Source of the DNA: Catenulispora sp. MAP5-51 | GTDB lineage: Bacteria; Actinomycetota; Actinomycetes; Streptomycetales; Catenulisporaceae | DNA length: 64,000 nucleotides | Direction: 5' to 3' | Assembly (NCBI RefSeq): GCF_041261205.1 | Contig: NZ_JBGCCH010000003.1 | Location: forward strand, 372,001 to 436,000 | Shown here: positions 22,806 to 38,079 of the stretch, one piece after another | Layout of the letters: each line of letters begins with the position of its first letter | Position numbering within the stretch: the first letter of the stretch is position 1 | The notes under the pieces: model-generated | Databases searched by the model: none | What the model saw: the letters and a program-made list of their open reading frames with translations, nothing else | What the model was told of the DNA's origin: nothing | Made by a program: the position numbers and the translations under genes

Positions 22806-25800
22806 GTGGACGCCAACCGACCCGCTCCGGGCCCCGGCGGCTACGGCGGCCTCGGCGCCGGGAGCATCGTCTCGAAGAACATCCAGCCGCTGCTGGAGGC
22901 CGACCCGCGCCAGATCGGGCCCTACGCGGTGCGGGGGCGCCTGGGCCAGGGCGCGATGGGCAGCGTCTACCTCGGCTTCGCCCCCTCCGGGCAGGCGTTC
23001 GCCCTGAAGGTGCTGCGCCAGGACTTCGCCTCCGACCGCGACTTCCGCAAGCGCTTCACCCGCGAGATCGCCGCGGCGCGCGCGGTGCACTCCCCGTTCG
23101 TGAACGCCGTCACCGACGCCGACCCCAACGCCGCGACCCCGTGGCTGGCCTCGTACTTCATCCCCGGCCCGCCCCTGAGCTCGGCGGTGCAGCTGGCCGG
23201 CCCCTTCGCCCCCCGCTCGGTGGCCCACCTCGGCGTCGGCATCGGCCTGGCCCTGCAGGCCATCCACACCGCGGGCATCGTCCACCGCGACCTGAAGCCG
23301 GCCAACGTCCTGGTCGCCTCCGACGGCCCGCGCGTCATCGACTTCGGCATAGCCCGCGCCGTCGACGCCAGCATGCTCACCGCCACCGGCATGCGCCTGG
23401 GCACCCCGAGCTTCATGGCCCCCGAACAGGTGGCGGGCAGCGACGTGGACGCCCCGGCGGACGTCTGGGCGGTCGGCGGCATGCTGATCTACGCCGCCAC
23501 CGGCCGCACCCCCTTCGGCGACGGCAACGCGATGGCCATCCTCTACCGCGTCGAGAACCACGAGCCGGACCTGCAGGGGATGGAGCCGGCACTGGCGTAC
23601 ATAGCAGGACGCTGCCTGACCAAGGACCCCGCCGAGCGCCCGACCCCGACCCAGCTGGTCGAGATGTGCCGCGCCGCCCTCAACGGCGGCCTGGAGGGAC
23701 ACCCGGCCCTGCGCGGCTCGGACGTCACCGGCTGGCTGCCGTCGGCGGTGTCGCGGGACCTCGCGGCGCGGGCGGTGGAGCTTGCGAACATCGGGCATGT
23801 GGTGCCGGGGCCGGGGCCGGTACCTGCGGCGGCTGCGCCTGCGACCGCGTCGCCGAGTGCGGGCGGCGACACCGGCACCGGTACCGGCGCGGGTGGCGCG
23901 GGCAAGACCGGCGGGGGCCTCGGCGGATTCTTGCGACGCAAAGGCGGAGGACCGGCCGGCGCCGGTTCCGCGACGGGGGCGCCCTCGACCGGGCAGCCGA
24001 GTGGTCAATACAGTCAGGGGACTGCGATGGGTGGCGGGCAGGGGCAGTACGGGCAGCCGAGCGGCCAGACCGGCGGCGGACAGTACGGGCCTCCGCCGGG
24101 GTACGAGGGACAGGACCCGAACGGGACGGGCGGCAGTGGGACGGGGCAGATAGCGCCTGGTCACATATCGCCTGGTCAGATGCCGCCTGGTCAGATGCCG
24201 CAGGGGCAAATGCAACCGGGCCAAATGCCGCCTGGGCAGTACGGCGCACAGCAGCAGGGCACCTTCGGCGGGCAGAACCCGGGCGGCACCAGCGGACAGT
24301 ACGGTGCGCCGGCTCCGCAGCAGGGGTATGCGAACCCTGAGCCCGCCGGCCAGTGGGGCCAGCCGCCGCAGAGTCAGCAGCAAAGCCAATGGGGACAACC
24401 CGCCGCACCGGCGTGGGGACCCTCGGGGCCCTCGGGCAGCGACATGCCCACCACCATCACGCCCCCGAACGTCCCCGCCCCCGAACCCCAGGAACCGGCC
24501 TGGCGCGCGGCGACCTCCTCGCAGACACCGGCGGCCCCGGAACCGGAACCGGCGGGAGTCGCAGGGCTTCCTGCGGGCTTCACGCCGATCGGGGAAGAAG
24601 CCAGGCGCCTCGAAGAAGTAGCTGAAGCAGACTCGGCAGCCGCCTCCGACAGCGGTTCCGGTCAGCAGCCCGCGGGCAATGGTCCGGCCTGGGGCCAGAC
24701 GCCCGGCTCCGGTTTCGGACAGCAGTCCGCGAGTGGCACTCCGGCTTGGGGCCAGCCTGCCGCTTCCGACGCCCCGGCTTGGGGCCAGCCCGCCGCTTCT
24801 GACGCTCCCGCCTGGGGCCAGCCCGCGCCTGCTTTGCCGCAGCCCGCCGCCTCTGCGGCTTCCGATGTCGATCCGGCTTTCGGCCCGCCCAAGCCCGCCA
24901 ACTCGGCCATCCCCCAGATCGCGGAGCCCACTTTCGCGACCAACTTCAACATCCCGGCCGTCACCCCGCCGCCCGAGGCCAGTGCCGACTCCGGCCCCGC
25001 GCGCTCGGGCATCGGCGTACCCTCCATCGCCGAGCCGACGTTCGCGACCAACTTCAACATCCCCGCCGTCACTCCGCAGCCCGAGCCGGCCGCCGATCAG
25101 CCTCAGGCCACGCCGTCGACTCCAAGCTCGACCCCGGCTCCCGCGCCGTCGTTCGCGGTCCCGCAGATCGCCGAGCCGACGTTCGCGACGAACTTCAACA
25201 TCCCGGCCGTGACCCCCGCGCCCGCGCCCGACGCCGCCCAAGCCGCCGCCCAAGCTGCCGCCACCGACGCCCCCGCGTCCCAGGCCGCGCCGTCGACCTC
25301 GCCGTCGACCCCGGCGTCGAATCCGACACCGCCCCCGGCTCCCGCGCCGTCGTTCGCGATCCCGCAGATCGCCGAACCCACGTTCGCCACCAACTTCAAC
25401 ATGCCCGCCGTGACCCCGCAGTCCGGCACCGGGGATTCCAGCGAGCCCGAAGCGTCGGCACCCGCGGCGCCGTTCAGCGGCATCAGCGTCCCGCAGATCG
25501 CCGAGCCGACGTTCGCGACCAACTTCAACATGCCTGCGGTCTCCGCCGCCGCCCCGAACGCCGACTCCGACACGGGCGACGCACCCTCCGCCCGCACCGG
25601 CCCTCCCGCGGTCAGCGTCCCCTCCATCGCCGAACCCAGCTGGGCCACCGGCTTCATGCCCGCGGTCACCCCCGACGCCCCGGCGCAGGACGCGATCCAA
25701 GACGCGATCCCGTCCCCGATCCCCGACGAGCCGGAACCGGCCCCCAAGCCGATCACCCACGCCCCGCCGATCCCGCCGCACCTCCAGCAGCCGATGACGC

Positions 25801-27089
25801 CGCCCAAGGGCTTCGGCACGCCATCCAGCACGCCGAGCTCCCAGCAGCAGCCGCAGTCGCCGCCGTTCCAGCAGCAGACCCCGGCCCAGCAGCCCTTCGC
25901 GCCGCAGCAGGGTCAGGGTCAGGGACAAGGCCAATATCAGCAGCCCTACGCCGCCGGCGGCTACGCCCAGCAGCCTCAGCCCCCGTTCGCCCAGCAGCCC
26001 CCGGCTCCCCAGCCCCAGCACGGCTACCAGCAGCAGTCGCCGCAGGCCTACCAGCAGCCGTACCAGCCGCAGCCCCCGCAGAGCCCTCAGGCCCCGCACC
26101 CCCAGCAGCAGTTCGGCTACCAGCAGCCCCAGGCCTCGCCGCAGCAGTCCTCGGCTCAGCAATACGCGGGCTACCAGCAGCCCCCGGCCTACCAGCAGCC
26201 CTCAGCCTCGCCGCAGCAGCCGCCCGCCCAGCACTACGCGGGCTACCAGCAGCAGCCCCCGGCCCCGCAGCAGCACGCGGCCTACCAGCAGCAGCCCCCG
26301 CAGCCCCCGCAGCCCTCCAACCACCCCGGCCACCCGGGCCACCCGGGCCACCCGGGCCACCCCAACCAAGCCCCCACCCCCCGCCCGGACCACAACCCCC
26401 AAGCCGGCGGCATGACCATCGTCCCCCTCCCGCCCTCGATGGAGTCCCCGTACGGCGTCCCCGAACGTCCCCAGGGCCCCGGCCCGACCCTCGTCGACAC
26501 CGGCACCGCCAAGGGCTGGTCCTCCTGGTCCAGCAGCAAGCGCATCATCGTCCTCACCGTCGCGGGCATCGTCGTCGTCGGCGGCATCGTCGGCGCGATC
26601 CTGGCCATGTCCGGCGGCTCCTCCAAGTCCGGCGCCCCCGTCTCGCCCGCCGTCGGCAACGCCGCCCACACCACCGGCGGCTCCCCGACCACCACCGCGG
26701 CGGCCGGTCCGATCGGTGCGCAGCAGGGCGCGCCCGGCGCGCGCGACGTCGTTCTGCGCGGTCTCTATGTCGCCGCGGCCGACCGCGACTTCCAGACCGT
26801 CTGCTCCTCCCAGACCGACGCCGCGCAGAAGGGCGCCGCCAAGAGCGCCGGCTGGGACGGCCAGGGCGATCCCATGGCGCTGTGCGAGAAGTACTTCCAG
26901 GACAACTGGTCCACCATCAGTGCCGACTACCTGCGCGGACGCCAGGTGACCGACGTCAAGACCGGCCCGGCCGCGAGCACCATGACGGTCACCGTGAACG
27001 ACCCGCCGCCGTCCGGCGGCGGCAGCACCCGCAGCTTCACCGTCGTCTGGCAGGACACCCACTGGCTGCTCGAGGCGGCGAACGCCTGA
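22806..27089 (+). CDS. Giant membrane Ser/Thr protein kinase with repetitive Pro/Gln/Ala linker
   Basis: A 1427-residue Hanks-type kinase from GTG 22806, with a GGGGGAG ribosome site. Kinase domain at about 35-300: GQGAMGSVYLG (P-loop), FALKVL (Lys), HRDLKPANVL near 160, DFG near 178 and MAPE near 204. A linker of about 940 residues is then low complexity: PGQMPPGQMP runs, PAWGQPAASDA units, six copies of a 17-residue motif (separate entry), then YQQP-type Gln/Pro repeats and GHPGHPGHPG. One helix (IIVLTVAGIVVVGGIVGAIL, about 1247-1266) leads to an external domain of 160 residues with two Cys, ending VVWQDTHWLLEAANA. No PASTA or FHA domain is seen. Most actinobacterial kinases are 500-750 residues. 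The external ligand is unknown. Confidence 0.92.
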   Translation: MDANRPAPGPGGYGGLGAGSIVSKNIQPLLEADPRQIGPYAVRGRLGQGAMGSVYLGFAPSGQAFALKVLRQDFASDRDFRKRFTREIAAARAVHSPFVNAVTDADPNAATPWLASYFIPGPPLSSAVQLAGPFAPRSVAHLGVGIGLALQAIHTAGIVHRDLKPANVLVASDGPRVIDFGIARAVDASMLTATGMRLGTPSFMAPEQVAGSDVDAPADVWAVGGMLIYAATGRTPFGDGNAMAILYRVENHEPDLQGMEPALAYIAGRCLTKDPAERPTPTQLVEMCRAALNGGLEGHPALRGSDVTGWLPSAVSRDLAARAVELANIGHVVPGPGPVPAAAAPATASPSAGGDTGTGTGAGGAGKTGGGLGGFLRRKGGGPAGAGSATGAPSTGQPSGQYSQGTAMGGGQGQYGQPSGQTGGGQYGPPPGYEGQDPNGTGGSGTGQIAPGHISPGQMPPGQMPQGQMQPGQMPPGQYGAQQQGTFGGQNPGGTSGQYGAPAPQQGYANPEPAGQWGQPPQSQQQSQWGQPAAPAWGPSGPSGSDMPTTITPPNVPAPEPQEPAWRAATSSQTPAAPEPEPAGVAGLPAGFTPIGEEARRLEEVAEADSAAASDSGSGQQPAGNGPAWGQTPGSGFGQQSASGTPAWGQPAASDAPAWGQPAASDAPAWGQPAPALPQPAASAASDVDPAFGPPKPANSAIPQIAEPTFATNFNIPAVTPPPEASADSGPARSGIGVPSIAEPTFATNFNIPAVTPQPEPAADQPQATPSTPSSTPAPAPSFAVPQIAEPTFATNFNIPAVTPAPAPDAAQAAAQAAATDAPASQAAPSTSPSTPASNPTPPPAPAPSFAIPQIAEPTFATNFNMPAVTPQSGTGDSSEPEASAPAAPFSGISVPQIAEPTFATNFNMPAVSAAAPNADSDTGDAPSARTGPPAVSVPSIAEPSWATGFMPAVTPDAPAQDAIQDAIPSPIPDEPEPAPKPITHAPPIPPHLQQPMTPPKGFGTPSSTPSSQQQPQSPPFQQQTPAQQPFAPQQGQGQGQGQYQQPYAAGGYAQQPQPPFAQQPPAPQPQHGYQQQSPQAYQQPYQPQPPQSPQAPHPQQQFGYQQPQASPQQSSAQQYAGYQQPPAYQQPSASPQQPPAQHYAGYQQQPPAPQQHAAYQQQPPQPPQPSNHPGHPGHPGHPGHPNQAPTPRPDHNPQAGGMTIVPLPPSMESPYGVPERPQGPGPTLVDTGTAKGWSSWSSSKRIIVLTVAGIVVVGGIVGAILAMSGGSSKSGAPVSPAVGNAAHTTGGSPTTTAAAGPIGAQQGAPGARDVVLRGLYVAAADRDFQTVCSSQTDAAQKGAAKSAGWDGQGDPMALCEKYFQDNWSTISADYLRGRQVTDVKTGPAASTMTVTVNDPPPSGGGSTRSFTVVWQDTHWLLEAANA
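24918..25673 (+). repeat. Six in-frame copies of the motif IAEPTFATNFN(I/M)PAVTP in the kinase linker
   Basis: Copies start at 24918, 25026, 25167, 25368, 25497 and 25626. The first five keep 15 or more of 17 residues; the sixth is IAEPSWATGFMPAVTP. Each is preceded by (I/V)P(Q/S). Spacers between copies vary in length (57, 90, 150, 78 and 78 bases) and are Ala/Pro/Ser-rich without conservation. The DNA of the copies varies at third codon positions, so the protein motif, not the DNA, appears to be conserved. Confidence 0.9.
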
Positions 27090-27176: not shown

Positions 27177-27605
27177 ATGACAGGGCATGGACCGGCCGTC
27201 GCAGCGGTCGGAAACGCGGCGGGCACGGGGAGTAGCGGCACATACTTCAGCGCCTACTCCGTGGTCGGAATCCTCCTGCTCCTGGGAGTGGCGTTCGTGG
27301 CGACCGCTTTCGGTGCCAACCGCTTGTTGCGTCCCCACGCACCGACCCCCGAGAAACTCCTCACCTACGAATGCGGCGTGGACCCAGTCGGTGAAGGATG
27401 GGCACATACGCAAGTCCGGTATTACGTATATGCGTTCCTCTACGCCATCTTTGCCGTAGACGCCGTATACCTGTTCCCCTGGGCGACCATCTTCGCGGCG
27501 CCCGGCTTCAAGGGCACGACGCTCGTGGAGATGTTCGTCTTCCTCGGCTTCCTGGCGGTCGGCTTGCTGTACGCCTACAAGAAGGGTGTGCTGACATGGC
27601 TGTAG
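27177..27605 (+). CDS. nuoA: NADH-quinone oxidoreductase subunit A
   Basis: A 142-residue membrane subunit at the junction of the Complex I arms. It has three helices ([56 protein letters not shown]). The loop [13 protein letters not shown] carries the invariant Cys near the quinone site (YECG). First gene of an operon whose order is A, B, C, H, I, J, K, L, M, N. Overlaps nuoB by ten bases. Confidence 0.94.
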
Positions 27606-28477
27606 ACCTTCCCGTCCCGCGCGTCGGCGCGCCTGTGCAGTCCTCTGCACAGGGAACAGGTACGGGAGCCGCTTTAGGGTTCCTCAACAGTGCCGCGCCC
27701 CAGCCGATGCGTGTTGTCCTCAACTGGGGACGCCGCTACTCCCTCTGGGTCTTCAACTTCGGTCTGGCCTGCTGCGCCATCGAGTTCATCGCGACCTCCA
27801 TGGCCCGCCACGACTTCATCCGTCTGGGCGTCATCCCCTTCGCGCCGGGACCCCGTCAGGCGGACCTGATGGTCGTCTCCGGCACGGTCTCGGACAAGAT
27901 GGCTCCGGCCGTGAAGCGTTTGTACGACCAGATGCCCGAGCCCAAGTACGTGATCTCCTTCGGCTCTTGCTCCAACTGCGGGGGCCCGTACTGGGACTCG
28001 TATTGTGTGACCAAGGGTGTCGACCAGGTGATCCCGGTGGACGTCTACGTCCCGGGCTGCCCGCCGCGTCCTGAAGCTCTGCTTCAAGGAATCATTAAGC
28101 TCCAGGAAAAGATCGCGGCGGAAGACCTCCGGGCGCGCTATAGCGGACGCGATCCCCGCCACCCTCCGCGGCTCCCCTTTATGCGCCGCTCGCCTAAGCA
28201 TCTCTCCAAGGCGTCCGCAGAGTCGGCTACAGGGTCGGCCCCAGAGTCGCCCGCCGACAAGGCCTCGTCCAAGACCATCGCGGACATCCTCGCGACGGCC
28301 CAGGCGCCGGTCTCCCTGCTTCCCCCGCGCGAGGACGCCTCGACGATCCTCCTCCCGGTCGTGGAGACGCCGAAGCCGCCGAAGCTCTTCTACCGCCGCT
28401 ACCCGAAGGAGCTGCGGCGCTCCCGCGACATCGGCCTCAACATCCTCAACCAGAAGCCGGAGGCCGACGATGACTGA
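27596..28477 (+). CDS. nuoB: NADH-quinone oxidoreductase subunit B, with C-terminal extension
   Basis: Carries the terminal 4Fe-4S cluster N2 that hands electrons to quinone. The 293 residues start at ATG 27596. Cluster ligands are the CC pair in [10 protein letters not shown], the Cys in [10 protein letters not shown] and the Cys in [14 protein letters not shown]. The standard core ends near residue 180. About 110 extra residues follow, Ser/Pro/Lys-rich, including [20 protein letters not shown] at about 262-281. The extension is not part of ordinary NuoB and resembles the added tails on other subunits of this operon. Confidence 0.94.
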
Positions 28478-29096
28478 GGCCGAGACCTGGGATGACGTCC
28501 AGGAGACCTTCGGCGAGCGGACCGTCACCGCCGCCCCCGGCGACTGGCTGGCCACGCTGGAGCGGGCCCACGGGCTGGGCTACACGTTCTTCGACTGGCT
28601 GACCGCGGTCGACGAGGAGGACGCGGGCTTCGACGTCTTCGCGCACGTCGCCAAGGTCGAGGGCGACGAGCGCGCGGCCCGGCTGCTGATCAGGACCCGC
28701 ATCCCGAAGGACAAGGCGGAGCTGCCCTCGGCGGTGCACGTCTACCGGGGCGCGAACTGGCATGAGCGCGAGACGTTCGAGATGTTCGGCATCACGTTCA
28801 CCAACCACCCGAACCTGATCCCGCTGCTCCTGCCCGACGGTTTCGACGGGCATCCGCTGCGCAAGGACTTCGTGCTGGCCGCGCGGGTCGCCAAGGAATG
28901 GCCGGGCGTCAAGGAGCCGGGGGAGGGCGGGCCCTCGCACGCGGCCCCCGCCGGGCGGGCCACGCGTCGCCGCATGGTTCCCCCCGGCGTTCCGGACGGT
29001 TGGCTGAAGCCGCTGCCCGAGGACGAGCCGCACGGGTCCGGTGCCGCTGATGCCGCCGATACCTCTCCGGCCGAGGGACAGGAAGGCGGAGCATGA
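28470..29096 (+). CDS. nuoC: NADH-quinone oxidoreductase subunit C
   Basis: A 208-residue peripheral-arm subunit (30-kDa type) starting at ATG 28470 within the end of nuoB. The conserved segment is [20 protein letters not shown], followed by [21 protein letters not shown], around residues 88-133. A Pro/Ala-rich C-terminal tail of some 60 residues follows. There is no fused NuoD domain, and the next gene is nuoH, so the 49-kDa subunit D is missing from the operon. Confidence 0.93.
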
Positions 29097-30061
29097 CCGT
29101 CACGGACGCCGTCGTCCGGCTGGCCATCATCCTGGGGTTCTTCCTGGTCGTGCCGTTGGTCGTGGGCCAGATGGAGCACAAGGCCATGGCGCACATGCAG
29201 TCCCGCGTGGGGCCGATGTACGCCGGGGCCTTCCACGGCTGGGCGCAGCTGGTCGCGGACGGCGTGAAGTTCGCGCAGAAGGAGGACGTGGTCCCGGCCG
29301 ACGCCGACCGCCGCGTGTTCCAGCTGGCGCCGGCCGTCGCGCTGATCCCGTACCTGGTGGTGCTGGTGGCGATCCCGATCGGGCCGGGCACGCAGGTCGG
29401 GCGGAACCTGGACGCCGGGCTGTTCTTCGTGCTGGCGGTGCTGGGCGTTGCCGTGCTGGGCTCGCTGATGGCCGGCTGGGCCAGCGCCAACAAGTACTCG
29501 CTGCTCGGCGGCATCCGCAGCGCGGCGCAGCTGATGGCCTACGAGCTGCCGATGATCCTCGCGGCGTCCTCGGTGGCGATGGCCGCCGGCACCCTGTCGC
29601 TGACCGGCATCGCCGAGGCATGGCACTGGTACTGGCTGCCGTGGCAGCTGATGGGCCTGTTCGTGTTCTTCGTCTCGGGCCTGGCCGAACTCCAGCGCCC
29701 GCCCTTCGACATGCCGGTGGCCGACTCCGAGATCATCTTCGGCGCCTACACCGAGTACACCGGCATCCGCTTCGCCCTGTTCCTGCTGGCCGAGTACGCC
29801 GGCATCGTGGTCCTGTCCCTGCTGACCACGGTCCTGTTCCTCGGCGGCTGGCGGGGCCCGTTCTACCTCGGCCTTGGCGCGGCCGGCTTCGGCTGGTTCT
29901 GGACCCTGGCCAAGACCCTGGTGCTGGCCTTCCTGGTGATCTGGCTCCGCGTGAGCTACCCCCGCCTGCGCGAGGACCAGCTGCAGAAACTGGCGTGGAC
30001 GACCCTGATCCCGCTGTCGTTGGCGCAGATCGCGCTGACCGGAATCCTGAAGGTGGCCTGA
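29093..30061 (+). CDS. nuoH: NADH-quinone oxidoreductase subunit H
   Basis: A 322-residue subunit with eight or so helices that forms the quinone-access chamber. ATG 29093 overlaps the nuoC stop. Landmarks: QMEHKAMAHMQSRVGPMYAG near the N-terminus (the ERK..GxxQxRxGP loop, here EHKAMAHMQSRVGP), LADGVKF (here LVADGVKFAQKED), GGIRSAAQLMAYELPM, ELQRPPFDMPVADSEI and the acidic YTEYTGIRFALFLLAEY. WLRVSYPRLREDQLQKLAW closes the family pattern. Confidence 0.95.
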   Translation: MTVTDAVVRLAIILGFFLVVPLVVGQMEHKAMAHMQSRVGPMYAGAFHGWAQLVADGVKFAQKEDVVPADADRRVFQLAPAVALIPYLVVLVAIPIGPGTQVGRNLDAGLFFVLAVLGVAVLGSLMAGWASANKYSLLGGIRSAAQLMAYELPMILAASSVAMAAGTLSLTGIAEAWHWYWLPWQLMGLFVFFVSGLAELQRPPFDMPVADSEIIFGAYTEYTGIRFALFLLAEYAGIVVLSLLTTVLFLGGWRGPFYLGLGAAGFGWFWTLAKTLVLAFLVIWLRVSYPRLREDQLQKLAWTTLIPLSLAQIALTGILKVA

Positions 30062-30064
30062 CCG

Positions 30065-31879
30065 ATGAGCGCGGACAAGCGCGGCCTGCCCGGCGCCGGC
30101 CTGGCCAAGGGCCTGGCCACGACCCTGAAGACGATGACCAAGCGCTCCGTCACGGCGCAGTACCCGGACGTGAAGCCGGAACTCCCGCCGAGGTCCCGAG
30201 GCGTCATCGCCCTGCTCGAGGAGAACTGCACCTCCTGCATGCTCTGCGCCCGCGAATGCCCGGACTGGTGCATCTACATCGACTCCCACAAGGAAGTCGT
30301 CCCCGCCACCGAACCAGGCCAGCGCGACCGCACCCGCAACGTCCTCGACCGCTTCGCGATCGACTACAGCCTGTGCATGTACTGCGGCATCTGCATCGAA
30401 GCCTGCCCCTTCGACGCCCTCTTCTGGAGCCCGGAGTTCGAATACGCCGAATTCGACATCGTCGACCTCCTCCACGAAAAGGACCGCCTCCGCGACTGGA
30501 TGTGGACGGTCCCCCCGCCACCCCCGCACGCCACGAACGCCGAGCCCCCGAAGGAAATCGCCGCCGCCCAGAAGGCGGTCGAGAAGCAGGCGGCGGCCGA
30601 GGCCAAGGCGGCAGCCGAGCGCGCGACAACGCCGCCGACGGCCTCGCCGACTACGCCGCCGGCTGCCCCGCCGACCACGCCGCCGACTGCTTCGCCGACC
30701 ACGCCGCCGGCCGCCCCGCCCCGCCCCGAGAGCGGCCCGGCGAAGCGCACCGCGGCCCCGCGTCCCGAGCGCCCCCGCCCGACTCCCGCCCCCGAGGCCG
30801 ACACGACGGAGATCCCGAAGGTCACCGACACCGACGCCCCGAAGCGCCGCGACCCGCTGAAGGACACAGCGGAACTGCCGGTGGTCGAGCCGACGCAGTC
30901 CGGCACGCAGCCGCTGCCCCGCCCAGAGGCTGCCGCGACGCAGCCCCTGCCCCGCCCCGAGGCTGCCGCGACCCAGCCGCTCCCCCGGCCCGAGGCCGCC
31001 ACCCAGCCGCTGCCCCGGCCGGAAGCTTTGGCCGAGGCGCAGCTCTCGGCGGGGCTGATCGCGGAGATCGCGGCCGCCGAGGCCGCGGGGAAGCCGGCGG
31101 GGGAGACTGAGGGCGAGCCTGCTGCTGGAGTCGAGACCGGTGCTGAAGGCGAGCCGGAGGCGGTTGCCGAGGCCGAAGCGCCGGTCGCGGCCGAGCCGGA
31201 TGCTGCTGCTGAGCCTTCTGCCGAGGCCAAGACCGAAGCTGCTGAGCCAATTGCTGTTGTGCCCGAGGCTCCGGCGCCGGCAGCGGTTGAGCCGGAAGTT
31301 TCTGCTGAAGCAGCCTCTGCTGAGCCTGAGGCGTCTGCTGTGGTTGAGCCGGAGCCCGCCGCCGAAGCCACCACCTCTGCTGAGCCCGAGGTGCCTGCTG
31401 CGGTTGAGCCGGAAGCTTCTGCTGAAGCAGCCTCTGCTGAGCCCGAGGCATCTGCTGGGGTCGAGCCGGAGCCCGCCACCGAGCCGGAAGCCGGCACCGA
31501 GCCGCCGGCCGAACCCAAGCCCGCGCCCACCCGCGCTCGCAAAACCGCGGCTTCCAAGACCGCAGCCTCCAAGACCGCGGCGGCCAAGAAGTCCGCGGCT
31601 TCGAAGTCTGCTGCCTCAAAGACCGCTGCCTCCAAGTCCACCGCCAAAACCACCCCCCGCCGTCCTCGCAAAACCGCGGCTCCCGACACCCCCGCCACCT
31701 CCGAAACTCCCGACACCGGCGGCGACACCCCCGCTCCCACCCCAAGCCCCAAGCGCCCCCGCAAGACCGCCGCCTCCGCTCCCTCCGAGCCGCCGGCCAA
31801 GCCCGGCTCGGGCGGCAGCGGCAGCGACACCGACACCGACACCGGCCCCGCCCCCGACTCCCCGGAGGCCGCCGGATGA
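30065..31879 (+). CDS. nuoI: NADH-quinone oxidoreductase subunit I with a 450-residue Ala/Pro/Glu tail ending in a histone H1-like Lys/Ala segment
   Basis: The first 155 residues are a normal NuoI. Two 4Fe-4S motifs, [15 protein letters not shown] near 55 and [15 protein letters not shown] near 104, bind clusters N6a and N6b. Ordinary NuoI ends near residue 160-220. Here a low-complexity tail runs to 604: [15 protein letters not shown] repeats (about 185-215), three to four [11 protein letters not shown] units (about 278-318), then long Glu/Ala/Pro repeats ([13 protein letters not shown], twice). At about 490-540 comes a Lys/Ala/Ser block ([20 protein letters not shown]...) like the tails of actinobacterial HU-type proteins. 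The frame is intact and the downstream start overlaps the stop, so the tail is probably translated. Confidence 0.93.
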
Positions 31880-32490
31880 CCGCCACCCGTGCGCTCGGCT
31901 CCACCACCGGGGTCGAGATCACCTTCATCCTGGTCGGGCTGCTGACCTTCGGGGCTGCCGTCCTGACCGTGACCGTGCGCAATCTTGTGCACGCCGCGCT
32001 CTGGCTCGTTGTGGCGCTCGGGGGGCTCGCGGGCTGCTATCTGCTGCTCGCCGCTGAGTTCGTGGCGTGGGTGCAGGTGCTCATCTACGTCGGTGCGGTC
32101 GCCGTGCTGTTGTTGTTCGGGTTGATGCTGACGCGGGCGCCTATCGGGCGGACCACTGAGCTGGACTCCGGGAATCGTTGGGCTGCCGCTGTTGTGGGGC
32201 TGGCGACGGCCGGGGTGCTGGTCAGTGTCGTCGGTGATGCGGTGCGGACCACGTGGTTCGATCCGCGGCAGGCTGTGGTGAACGGGACTGCCAAGGCCGT
32301 GGGCTCCAGCTTGTTCCGCTACTGGGTGCTGCCTTTCGAGCTGCTGTCCGTGCTGCTGCTTGCGGCGCTGGTCGGGGCGATCGTGCTGTCCCGGCGCGAT
32401 GTGTCCGCCGATGCCGAGGGCGATGTCGAGGGCGATGCTCATGCCGTGGGCCACGCCGGCGCCGATTCCGTGACGGAGGCCGAAGCCTGA
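31876..32490 (+). CDS. nuoJ: NADH-quinone oxidoreductase subunit J
   Basis: A 204-residue membrane subunit starting at ATG 31876 within the nuoI stop (ATGA). Five helices. The conserved third helix reads [26 protein letters not shown], holding the pi-bulge region near the E-channel; [12 protein letters not shown] is diagnostic. The final helix [20 protein letters not shown] precedes a short Asp/Ala-rich tail. Confidence 0.94.
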
Positions 32491-32491
32491 C

Positions 32492-32890
32492 ATGCACGCC
32501 ATCTACCCCCTCACCCTCGCCGCCCTGCTCTTCGCGGTCGGCGTCTACGGCGTCCTGGCCCGCCGCAACGCGGTGGCCGTCCTCATGGCGATCGAGCTCC
32601 TCCTCAACGCCGTCAACCTCAACCTCGTCACCTTCTCCAGCCTCCTGCGCGACCAGTACGGCATGGGCCAGGTCTTCACCATCTTCCTGATCACCGTCGC
32701 CGCCGCCGAGACGGGCCTGGGCCTGGCGATCGTCCTGCTGCTGTACCGCAACCGCGGCACCGCTGCCATCGACGACGCGCGCGACCTCGGCGAGGACGGG
32801 GCCCTGGGCCTGCGCCGGATCCCGCAGCAGGCGGACGGCGACGGGCAGGGCGCCGGGACCGCCCCCGCCCCGAAGGCGGTGACCAAGTGA
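32492..32890 (+). CDS. nuoK: NADH-quinone oxidoreductase subunit K
   Basis: A 132-residue, three-helix subunit. [20 protein letters not shown] carries the conserved proton-channel Glu ([11 protein letters not shown]), and the third helix has [22 protein letters not shown] with the second Glu. A 30-residue Gly/Gln-rich tail is additional. One base separates it from nuoJ. Confidence 0.95.
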
Positions 32891-35028
32891 GTATCAGCAC
32901 CCTGGCTCTGTGGATCCCGATCCTCCCCCTGTTCTCCGCCGCGGCCCTCGCGGCGGTCTCGCTGTCCGGCCGCGCCCGCGCGGTGGTCCCGGCTCTGGCC
33001 GTCCTCCCGATCGCCGCCGCTGCCGTCCTCACCTTCGTGGTCCTGTTCGGCCACGGCACCTCCGCGGCCACCCAGTCCCAAATCCGGTACGCGGCGACCG
33101 GCGGGCCCGAGATCTGGCTCGGTGCGCGTGTCGACGGCCTGGCCGCGCTGATCGCGGTCCTGGTCGGCGTGGTGGCCACCGCGGTGCAGCTCTACTCGGT
33201 CAGCTACATGGCCCACGAGGAGCGCTACACCTCCTACTCCGCCCTCATCTCGCTGTTCACGGGGGCGATGCTGGTCGTCGTCTACTCCACCGACCTGCTC
33301 GTCCTGCTCGTCGGCTGGGAAATCATGGGCGCCTGCTCCTACTTCCTCATCGGCCACCACTGGGAGCGCCCCGAAGCCCGCAGCGCGAGCATCAAAGCGT
33401 TCCTGGTCACCAAGTTCGGCGACGCCCCCTTCCTGCTGGGCATCCTGTTCCTGGCGCACGGCGCGGGCTCGTTCCGCATCCAGCCTGTCCTGGCGCACGC
33501 GATCCAGGAGGGCGGCCACGGCTACACCGCCGCCGGCGCGATCCTGCTGATCGGCGGCGTGATGGGCAAGAGCGCGCAGATCCCGCTGCAGACCTGGCTT
33601 CCGGACGCGATGGCCGGCCCGACCCCCATCAGTGCCCTGATCCACGCGGCCACCATGGTCGCCGCCGGCGTCTACGCCGTGGCCCGCCTCTACCCGGTGT
33701 TCCTGGTGACGCCGGCCGCGTTGTGGATCCTCGCGATCGCCGCGGCGATCACCGCCGTGACCGCCGCGCTGTCCGCCTTCGCCCAACGCGACCTCAAGCG
33801 CATCCTGGCCTACTCCACGGTCAGCCAGCTGGCGCTGATGGTCGGGGCGCTCGCGGCCGGCGGCCGGGACGCGGCCGTGTTCCACCTGATGTCCCACGGT
33901 GCGTTCAAGGCCCTGCTCTTCCTCGGCGCCGGCGTGATCATCCACAAGGCCGGCACCGGTGATGTGGACGAGCTCAACACCCAGGATCTGCGCCGCAAAC
34001 TGCCGCTGACCTGCGTCACCATGACGATCGGCCTCGCCGCCCTGGCCGGCGTCCCGCCCTTCTCAGGGTTCTTCTCCAAGGAGTCGATCGCGGGCGTGGC
34101 CTACGACACGGCGACGCACAGCGGCCCGACCAAGTCACTCCTGGGCATCACCCCGGCCGCCGGCATCGGCTGGCTGGTCTTCGCCGCGACGCTGCTGACC
34201 GGCTTCCTCACCGCCGCCTACGCCCTGCGCACCTGGTGGATGCTCTTCGGTCCGCTGGAGCGCGGCTGGTTCCGTTCGGCGGTGGAGATCTCGCAGCGCC
34301 AGCCGAAGGCGACGCAGGCCTCGGCGCCGGCGGGCGAAGCCGAGACCGCGACGGCCGAGGAGGTCGCCGCGGCCGGCGAATGGGCCCTGGAGGCCCTCGT
34401 CGCGGAGTCGATGCGCGAGGAGACCGAGGCCGCGGAAAAGGCGGCGGCGAAAGCGAAAACCGGCCCCGAGGCACCGCGTGCCGAACTCCTCCCGCTGGTC
34501 GTCCTCGCGGCGGTCACCACGGTGTTCGGCTTCGTCGGCCTGAACCTCGGCTGGTTCCCGTCCTGGCTCGGTGACGCCGACGGCGGCGCCTACCGACCGT
34601 CGTTGGCCGGCGCCGGCAAGCTCATCCAGCCCGCCGACGCCTACCACCTGGCGCCCGCGCTGGTGTCGAGCATCCTGGCGGTGGCCGCGCTGCTGCTCGG
34701 TGTCGCACTGGTCCTGGCCGCCGCCAGGGCGAAGCCGGGCACGGATCCGAACCACGTCCTGGGCTTCCTGCGCAAGCCCGCCTTCCTGGGCTTTCGCGCC
34801 GACGACCTCCAGGACGCGATCGTGGTCCGCCCGGTGCAGGCCGCCGCGGACACGGTCGGCTTCCTGGACACCGAGGTCGTGGACGGCTACGTGCGGGGGA
34901 GCGGCGCCGCCGCGCGCCTGCTCGGCGAGGGCCTGCGCCGGCTCCAGACCGGCAACGTCCAGCTCTACCTGACCGGGGTGCTGACCGGAGTGGTCGTCAT
35001 CGCCGCCGCCCTCGGATTCGGAAGGTAG
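32887..35028 (+). CDS. nuoL: NADH-quinone oxidoreductase subunit L
   Basis: A 713-residue antiporter-like proton pump at the end of the membrane arm, starting at GTG 32887 across the nuoK stop (GTGA). Key residues are visible: [17 protein letters not shown] (TM5 Glu), [21 protein letters not shown] (TM7 Lys), [29 protein letters not shown] and [17 protein letters not shown] (TM12 Lys). An Ala/Glu-rich insertion of about 65 residues (about 470-535, [15 protein letters not shown]) interrupts the C-terminal part. The lateral-helix region follows but is shorter than I would expect; this was not measured by alignment. Confidence 0.95.
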
Positions 35029-35036
35029 GGAAAGCG

Positions 35037-36551
<1,515 letters not shown>

Positions 36552-36552
36552 C

Positions 36553-38079
36553 GTGACGGTCTCCTCCCTCGTCCAGAACGTCTCCTACGCGCAGATCGCC
36601 GCGCCGCTGATCGTCGCCGCCGGTGCGGTGGCGGTTCTGGTGGCGGAAGTCTTCCTCCCGCCGCGGCGCAAGCCGCTGGTGTCGTGGCTGTCGTTGCTGG
36701 TGCTGGCCGGGGCCGCGGCGCCGGACATCGCTTTGTGGCCGGGGCGGACGGTCGGGACGTTCTGCATGCCGCAGAGCGCCGCCAGCCTCTACTCGCTCGG
36801 GATGGGCGAGCCGCGCACGCTGCCGAGTACGTGTTCTTATGTCGCGGACCGGTTCACGCTCATCTTCCAGTTCATCGCGCTGGCCGGGGCCTTCATCGTG
36901 GTCCTGATGTCCGCCGCGTCGATGAAGCGGGACCGGATCCCGACCGGGGAGTACCACTTCCTGCTGCTGTCCTCGGTGGCGGGCGTCCTGGTCCTGGCGG
37001 CGTCGCGGGACCTGATCACGCTGACCGTCGCGCTGGAGACGGTTTCGCTGCCGGCGTTCGCACTGGTCGGGTTGAAGCGGTGGAGCGGAAGATCCTCCGA
37101 GGCGGCGCTGAAGTTCTTCCTGGTGTCGGTGGCCTCGACGGCGGTGATGCTGTTCGGGATCAGCCTGGTCTACGGGGCCACCGGGAACGTGCACTTCGGG
37201 CCGGTCGCGCTGCACCTGCATGCTTTGAACGCATCGGCCGGCGGGCCGATCCGGCACCTGGCGTACCTCGGCGTCGGGATGACGCTGGTCGGCTTCGGGT
37301 TCAAGGTGTCGGCGGTGCCGTTCCACTTCTGGACGCCGGACACCTACGCCGGCGCGCCGGTCCCGATAGCGGCGTACCTGTCGGTGGTGTCGAAGGCGGC
37401 GGGTTTCGCCGGGCTGATCCTGTTGACCGGCACGGCTTTCAGCCCGCTGCTGAACAAGACGGGCCCGCTGCTCGCGGTGCTGGCCGCGCTGACGATGTCG
37501 CTGGGCAACCTGGTCGCGCTGCGGCAGCGGGACGCGGTGCGGCTGCTGGCGTGGTCCACGATCGGGCAGGCCGGCTACATCCTGGTGCCGCTCGCGGCGC
37601 ACGATTCGGTGTCGTACACGAAGCACATCAACGCCTCGATCGCGTACATCATCATGTACGCCGCGATGAACCTCGGCGCGTTCGCCGTGGTGCACTCGGT
37701 GCACGACACCCGCCTGGAGGCCTACCGCGGCCTGGCGAAGACCCGCCCGCTGGCCTCCGCCGCGCTGGCGTTCTTCCTGCTCTGCCTCGCCGGGCTCCCG
37801 CCGGGCCTGATGGGCCTGTTCGCGAAGGTCGCCGTCTTCGGCGCCGCGGCCGGCTCGCACCTGGTCTGGCTGGCGGTGGTGATGGCGGTGAACGTGGTGA
37901 TCGCCCTGTACTACTACCTGAGCTGGACCGCGATCCTGTTCGCCGCGCCCGGAGAGGCCACCGCCTCGGTCGGCCGCTCGCCGGCCACGCTGCGGTTCGC
38001 GATCGGGCTCACGATGGCGGCGGCGGTGCTGTTCTCGGTGTGGCCGCAGTCGGCTTTCGGGGCTTTCGGGGCCTTCTAG
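36553..38079 (+). CDS. nuoN: NADH-quinone oxidoreductase subunit N
   Basis: A 508-residue antiporter-like subunit from GTG 36553, last gene of the operon. Landmarks: YHFLLLSSVAGVLVLAASRDLITL, LALETVSLPAFALVGLKR (TM5 Glu), SEAALKFFLVSVASTAVMLFG (TM7-region Lys), VGFGFKVSAVPFHFWTPDTYAGAPVPI, VALRQRDAVRLLAWSTIGQAGYIL and YIIMYAAMNLGAFAVVH. It is convergent with htpX, with 20 bases between the stops. Confidence 0.95.
   Translation: MTVSSLVQNVSYAQIAAPLIVAAGAVAVLVAEVFLPPRRKPLVSWLSLLVLAGAAAPDIALWPGRTVGTFCMPQSAASLYSLGMGEPRTLPSTCSYVADRFTLIFQFIALAGAFIVVLMSAASMKRDRIPTGEYHFLLLSSVAGVLVLAASRDLITLTVALETVSLPAFALVGLKRWSGRSSEAALKFFLVSVASTAVMLFGISLVYGATGNVHFGPVALHLHALNASAGGPIRHLAYLGVGMTLVGFGFKVSAVPFHFWTPDTYAGAPVPIAAYLSVVSKAAGFAGLILLTGTAFSPLLNKTGPLLAVLAALTMSLGNLVALRQRDAVRLLAWSTIGQAGYILVPLAAHDSVSYTKHINASIAYIIMYAAMNLGAFAVVHSVHDTRLEAYRGLAKTRPLASAALAFFLLCLAGLPPGLMGLFAKVAVFGAAAGSHLVWLAVVMAVNVVIALYYYLSWTAILFAAPGEATASVGRSPATLRFAIGLTMAAAVLFSVWPQSAFGAFGAF

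Follow-up and report, generated by a model that had tools for sequence, protein, structure and literature searches.

The window analysed here, a 64,000-nucleotide stretch of the genome of the soil bacterium Catenulispora sp. MAP5-51, encodes a Ser/Thr kinase whose long linker carries an array of one short peptide in six copies. The array is confirmed; it is conserved, selection acts on it, and within what was searched it is confined to one genus. Its likeliest use is the multivalent recruitment of one cytoplasmic partner, with phosphorylation of an invariant threonine as a plausible added switch.

Domain organization and genomic context of the kinase

The gene and its main domains were delimited as follows.

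22806..27089, + strand: Hanks-type Ser/Thr kinase gene (ORF of 1427 aa with a GTG start; Pkinase PF00069, E=6.3e-40)
22923..23663, + strand: kinase catalytic domain (aa 40-286; HRDLKPANV at aa 160-168, DFG at aa 179-181)
26538..26609, + strand: probable transmembrane helix (aa 1245-1268; hydrophobic stretch after KR, read by eye)
26736..27086, + strand: probable extracytoplasmic domain, following the hydrophobic stretch, without a Pfam or NCBIfam match

The PF00069 match and the presence of HRDLKPAN and DFG place the protein in the Hanks-type class, and its kinase domain lies mostly in a high-confidence region of the AlphaFold2 model of residues 1-815. Among PDB sequences, its best relatives are PknA (5.5e-36) and PknB (2.4e-34). 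The closest NCBIfam match of the domain is AfsK (NF053615), with 258.6 bits over aa 27-324 only; since this score is far under the whole-protein cut-off of 1300 bits, the kinase was not assigned to AfsK. Compared with the PASTA-bearing receptor kinases of the StkP/PknB type, it reached 176.2 bits with NF033483, under the cut-off of 450. Outside the kinase domain, no Pfam match was obtained at E <= 0.1, nor was there one for the outer domain searched alone, and the AlphaFold2 model of the outer domain, built from two sequences, had a mean pLDDT of 49.5, too poor for a fold search.

The linker that joins the kinase domain to the hydrophobic stretch measures ~940 residues, and aa 300-1240 contain 189 Pro, 149 Ala, 122 Gln and 114 Gly of 941. 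The kinase is probably a membrane protein, and its juxtamembrane linker is probably cytoplasmic.

Orthologues were found in 9/9 other genomes of the genus, with 85-97% identity over the first 331 residues; the closest named kinases are those of C. pinisilvae (94% identity), C. pinistramenti (93%) and C. rubra (89%). Most of the outer domain is missing from one of these genomes (G008) and ~55 residues from another (G001), in both cases inside long contigs; both retain the linker elements and the array despite the reduced outer domain. Upstream of the kinase, purE was seen in 9/9 other genus genomes and purK in seven (partial in G009); in G008 and G001 the examined stretch stops short of purK. 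nuoA lies downstream in all four genomes whose examined stretch reaches that far (G008, G009, G001 and G007). These conserved neighbours therefore indicate a stable place for the gene in the genus, in the order purK-purE-kinase-nuoA.

Downstream in the window, the nuo cluster (27177-38079) comprises A, B, C, H, I, J, K, L, M and N, and C extends into the first part of H, leaving no nuoD-G between them. The I gene was named by position and by cysteine motifs read by eye, and L, M and N by order. The probable NuoI (30065-31879, 604 aa) bears a tail of >400 residues rich in Ala, Pro and Glu, with tandem 10-letter units and Lys-Thr-Ala repeats. Such a tail is long for a NuoI subunit.

A repeated peptide in the linker

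The copies of the peptide lie within the linker as follows.

24918..24968, + strand: motif copy 1, IAEPTFATNFNIPAVTP, starting at aa 705
25026..25076, + strand: motif copy 2, IAEPTFATNFNIPAVTP, starting at aa 741
25167..25217, + strand: motif copy 3, IAEPTFATNFNIPAVTP, starting at aa 788
25368..25418, + strand: motif copy 4, IAEPTFATNFNMPAVTP, starting at aa 855
25497..25547, + strand: motif copy 5, IAEPTFATNFNMPAVSA, starting at aa 898
25626..25673, + strand: motif copy 6, degenerate, IAEPSWATGF-MPAVTP, one residue shorter, starting at aa 941

The preliminary description of this DNA had placed six copies in 24918-25673, and this span is exact. The near-perfect conservation that it ascribed to all six applies to copies 1-5, which share a 15-residue core, IAEPTFATNFN(I/M)PAV, differing by Ile/Met alone, but not to the degenerate sixth copy. 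Codons and spacer lengths do vary, as had been noticed: the core DNA of the five near-identical copies differs at 3-7/45 bases, all silent except for the Ile/Met change, and start-to-start distances between successive copies range over 36-67 residues (36, 47, 67, 43 and 43).

A search profile of 21 positions, built from the genus copies and run against the full genome (10.9 Mb), recovered the six copies at E = 1.5e-12 to 1.9e-5, values that are partly circular because the profile includes copies of the window's own array; no match besides these six was found in the same genome at E <= 0.1. Recurrence in other species, described below, is what supports the array independently. A count-based scan of the window protein with no required position also returned exactly six copies at >=9/17 matches, shuffled versions of this protein reaching 8.0/17 on average and 10 at the maximum (200 shuffles). 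The repeat had been presented as matching no named kinase repeat, and none was found in Pfam (E <= 0.1), NCBIfam (E <= 0.001) or the PDB (best E 0.13); the two PDB matches (E 0.13-0.14) were both virginiamycin B lyase and were taken as chance. Over aa 701-800, which hold the first two copies and most of the third, the AlphaFold2 pLDDT is 23-42, and the linker around the array is predicted to be disordered.

Distribution of the array

The genus set comprised 10 genomes, that of the window (G000) included, and the kinase was present in all 10. The array was found in 7/7 genomes with an assembled linker, at 4-7 copies each and 38 in total (G000, 6; G008, 7; G009, 4; G001, 4; G004, 4; G007, 7; G005, 6). 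G002, G003 and G006 were left out of this count, as their kinase ORF meets a contig end within the linker. For G002 and G003, this missing C-terminal part was located <=10 bases from the end of another contig, and a search for it in G006 found nothing. The G004 sequence stops past the array, short of the membrane segment, and in G005 the kinase and the array lie on different contigs and were taken as one gene. All 38 genus profile matches (E <= 0.1) fall in the kinase gene or in the G005 contig with its C-terminal half.

G001, the single-contig genome of the genus, probably C. acidiphila, has its kinase ORF (L092:703-2787) and its array ORF (L092:1517-4798) in different frames. The frame changes in a C-rich stretch at ~L092:2224-2261, through a sequencing error or a true frameshift.

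Among genomes of sister genera, 0/4 gave a match to the motif profile. The best kinase hits there, which sit in open frames of 563-673 residues, share 46-50% identity; this does not exceed the 47-52% shown by other kinases within the genus. A survey of 393 other genomes of the class at E <= 0.1 yielded 12 weak partial matches, covering 8-15 profile positions at E 0.009-0.09; four of them come from one genus, where the same 8 positions match in frames of 154 residues. Score and length led us to treat all 12 as chance. In the phylum, 0/395 other genomes gave a match at E <= 0.001, the class and phylum surveys overlapping in genomes. The search across actinobacterial genomes proposed in the preliminary description thus returned nothing convincing outside the genus. 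Close relatives whose orthologous kinase lacked the motif would have counted against selection, and there was none among the seven informative genus genomes.

Two further possibilities were set aside. A two-unit, 56-residue query for the motif in other proteins of the genus gave outside matches only at E >= 0.0045, which were taken as chance. A mobile or phage origin was rejected, with no match in phages or plasmids and 30 pattern matches in viral contigs, none of them confirmed.

Other conserved elements of the linker

The alignment of the genus orthologues revealed further linker elements, each present in a single copy.

23913..23951, + strand: GGLGGFLRRKGGG, largely conserved
24408..24452, + strand: PAWGPSGPSGSDMPT, conserved (PAWGPSGPSGSD in 6/7 sequences)
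24561..24611, + strand: AGLPAGFTPIGEEARRL, conserved (GLPxGFxPIGEEA in 7/7)
25758..25814, + strand: HAPPIPPHLQQPMTPPKGF, conserved, directly after the array (HAPPIPPHLQQPMTPP in 7/7)
26412..26456, + strand: MTIVPLPPSMESPYG, conserved (T(I/V)VPxPPSMxSPYG in 6/7; G004 ends before it)

The PAWGPSGPSGSDMPT element of G001 is located in the other frame, and the AGLPAGFTPIGEEARRL element overlaps a short helix of low confidence in the AlphaFold2 model (aa 596-611). The peptide HAPPIPPHLQQPMTPP, which adjoins the array and is identical in 7/7 orthologue sequences, is a second candidate ligand peptide. Aromatic repeats, by contrast, turn over while the motif stays: WGQ occurs 0-6 times, FGQ 0-16 times and YQQ 0-8 times per sequence (seven sequences, three of them partial or partly out of frame). 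The linker may be read as a string of candidate ligand peptides, one of which has been multiplied.

Residue conservation and candidate functions

The 38 copies can be summarised as P-x-I-A-(E/P)-P-x-(F/W)-A-T-x-F-x-(I/M/L/F)-P. Six positions show no variation (38/38), namely P, I, A, P, T and the last P; the copies had been chosen by a strict pattern that itself requires P, I, A, P and T. A freer profile search gave the same copy number per genome. Scanning by the number of matches, without fixing any position, added one window at 9/17 in G008, which looks like chance, shuffled sequence reaching 11. The F/W position is aromatic in 38/38, A and the second F are each present in 37/38, and W replaces F in the terminal copy of 5/7 species. 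Realignment corrected the columns for three terminal copies shorter by one residue; the A1 profile was built from 17 variants, not from all 38 copies, with five W-bearing terminal copies left out. This conservation exceeds the needs of a phosphosite or of a sticker, and its pattern looks like that of a peptide lying in a groove.

Our tentative reading is multivalent docking: the short linear motifs of the array would recruit or cluster a putative cytoplasmic partner, a proposal that we hold to be about evenly balanced. The array combines several copies, purifying selection and a region that its low pLDDT (over the first three copies) predicts to be disordered; binding, partner and avidity are what we infer. 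Each copy would probably bind the same site on one putative cytoplasmic partner, either a substrate or a scaffold, and several partner molecules could be gathered at the kinase by avidity, with the spacers acting mainly as a flexible string. Phosphorylation of the invariant Thr by the kinase may serve to switch binding. The confinement of the motif to one genus in the genomes searched is a point against docking. In a fuller form, possible but held with somewhat less than even confidence, a genus-specific receptor-like kinase would have evolved a copy-number-variable scaffold whose 15-residue ligand peptides multivalently recruit or cluster a substrate.

The Thr of FAT(N/E)F might instead be an autophosphorylation site repeated 4-7 times, acting as a multisite phosphorylation rheostat or as a phosphothreonine ligand ladder for an FHA-type reader, which we consider unlikely. 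Canonical FHA readers prefer I/L/V/D at +3. Across the 38 copies, the residue at +3 from the invariant Thr is N (29), G (4), M (3), K (1) or H (1), unlike this preference, so that the conserved Thr is not accompanied by the conserved +3 residue of an FHA ligand. The FAT Thr is present in 38/38 copies, as this reading would have it, but the other two Thr positions hold Thr in 28/38 each after realignment, and several residues other than Thr are just as invariant. Parallels that favour it come from passages of PMC12077195, in which StkP is phosphorylated in vivo on threonines of its juxtamembrane domain, seven phosphothreonines being reported there, a phosphomimetic form favours the recruitment of division proteins, and the phosphorylated juxtamembrane segment of M. 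tuberculosis PknB binds FhaA.

It is rather improbable that the motifs bind each other or the kinase domain, thereby clustering or inhibiting the kinase, or forming a condensate-type self-assembly. With its aromatic F/W pairs and further aromatic repeats along a chain rich in P, Q and G, the linker does resemble sticker-and-spacer sequences, and a lead is offered by passages of PMC8849385, which describe condensates that tune a bacterial kinase. However, conservation extends past the aromatics to P, I, A and T, and stickers need less. AlphaFold2 also gave no confident structure for the first copies beside the kinase domain, a weak argument, as the model supplied per-residue confidence but no contacts and its 20-row alignment is mostly informative for the kinase.

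Selection on the peptide and turnover of the array

Synonymous and nonsynonymous changes were counted by the Nei-Gojobori method with a custom script for the species pairs G000/G008 and G009/G004; motif positions were set by pattern in one species per pair, a mild bias, and Fisher tests were applied to rounded counts. In these two pairs, respectively, dN/dS was 0.071 and 0.102 for the motif, 0.40 and 0.28 for the spacers, and 0.087 and 0.028 for the kinase. The linker gave 0.18 in both pairs before the array and 0.46 and 0.27 after it, on an uncertain alignment. Because of the value of 0.18 before the array, the contrast is weaker between the motif and the linker at large than between the motif and the spacers. 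Pooled over the two pairs, nonsynonymous change per site was 0.013 for the motif, 0.105 for the spacers and 0.009 for the kinase domain. The rate is ~8 times lower in the motif than in the spacers (Fisher P = 1e-8), and the stricter test, on the table of synonymous and nonsynonymous changes in motif and spacer, gave P = 0.018. No significant difference was detected between motif and kinase (P = 0.55 and 0.32). In five more distant pairs, dN/dS was 0.07-0.30 for the motif and 0.29-0.85 for the spacers.

The peptide is under purifying selection, as had been suggested from the window, with 7/7 informative genomes carrying it and a nonsynonymous rate like that of the kinase. Synonymous change is also lower in the motif (0.145) than in the spacers (0.260, P = 0.02), so that the likeness of the copies is owed in part to gene conversion, recent duplication or codon constraint.

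The copies arise through tandem duplication, and homogenisation accounts for some of their likeness. The G008 array opens with 108-base tandem units, of which units 1 and 2 show 7 differences, and copies 2 and 3 have identical 54-base cores. The five full copies of the window differ per pair by a mean of 5.2 silent and 1.6 replacement codons out of 18, and by this comparison are older than the G008 duplication. Between G000 and G008, orthologous copies are separated by 0-4 silent codons, and most copies therefore predate the split of these two species. Recent tandem duplication, which had been named as an explanation that would replace constraint, applies to the 108-base duplication of G008 and fails for the window's copies.

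In G007 and G005, 11/13 copies have P for E and 11/13 have E for N. This concerted change could reflect homogenisation, separate expansion or adaptation to one partner site, and is as expected if the copies face one site or are homogenised. Copy number would shift by tandem duplication of ~36-residue units, after which the spacer would drift and the motif would be retained by selection.

A mostly neutral history, in which gene conversion and recent duplication maintain the likeness of a tandemly duplicated unit with little function, is already disfavoured, and we regard it as very unlikely. It would accommodate the G008 units with their 7 differences and identical cores, the variation from 4 to 7 copies, the near array-wide E->P and N->E changes and the lower synonymous change in the motifs. 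It sits poorly with differences among the window's five copies that are all silent but Ile/Met, with spacers and other linker repeats that change where the motif does not, and with a motif nonsynonymous rate not significantly different from that of the kinase. A constraint on DNA or RNA instead of the peptide is disfavoured by the varying codons, despite the somewhat low synonymous change in the motifs, and chance repetition is rejected on the recurrence in seven species together with the selection statistics.

Comparison with known systems

How bacterial Ser/Thr kinases choose their substrates is poorly understood, and a conserved, repeated, ligand-like peptide in the linker is a ready bait for partner capture. 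The genus itself forms a natural series (4-7 copies, two motif versions) for studying valency and co-evolution. Among the top matches of searches in an open-access library, no title or opening of an abstract described such an array.

Like StkP and PknB, the Catenulispora kinase comprises a Hanks domain and a Thr-bearing juxtamembrane segment, predicted to be flexible; its probable membrane helix and outer domain would follow in the same order. In passages of PMC12077195, the disordered juxtamembrane domain of StkP is needed for the phosphorylation of most substrates and is proposed as a recruiting scaffold; bacterial juxtamembrane domains are there said to share no sequence similarity, and the role of long juxtamembrane linkers in bacterial Ser/Thr kinases is called 'elusive' as of 2025. 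The Catenulispora kinase differs from StkP and PknB by the absence of a PASTA match and by the ~940 residues of its linker, and the passages on StkP in PMC12077195 mention no repeated conserved peptide. By analogy, an array devoted to multivalent recruitment would be a repeated, conserved variant of the juxtamembrane recruitment theme of StkP. AfsK of Streptomyces (NF053615) provides the best NCBIfam match, but the alignment ends soon past the kinase domain.

Multivalent linear-motif scaffolds, such as eukaryotic adaptor tails, carry several copies of one short conserved peptide on a disordered chain. Compared with these tails, the Catenulispora array is bacterial and lies within the kinase itself. 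If the docking reading is true, the array would be the bacterial equivalent of such tails, and its partner would have a new peptide-binding domain.
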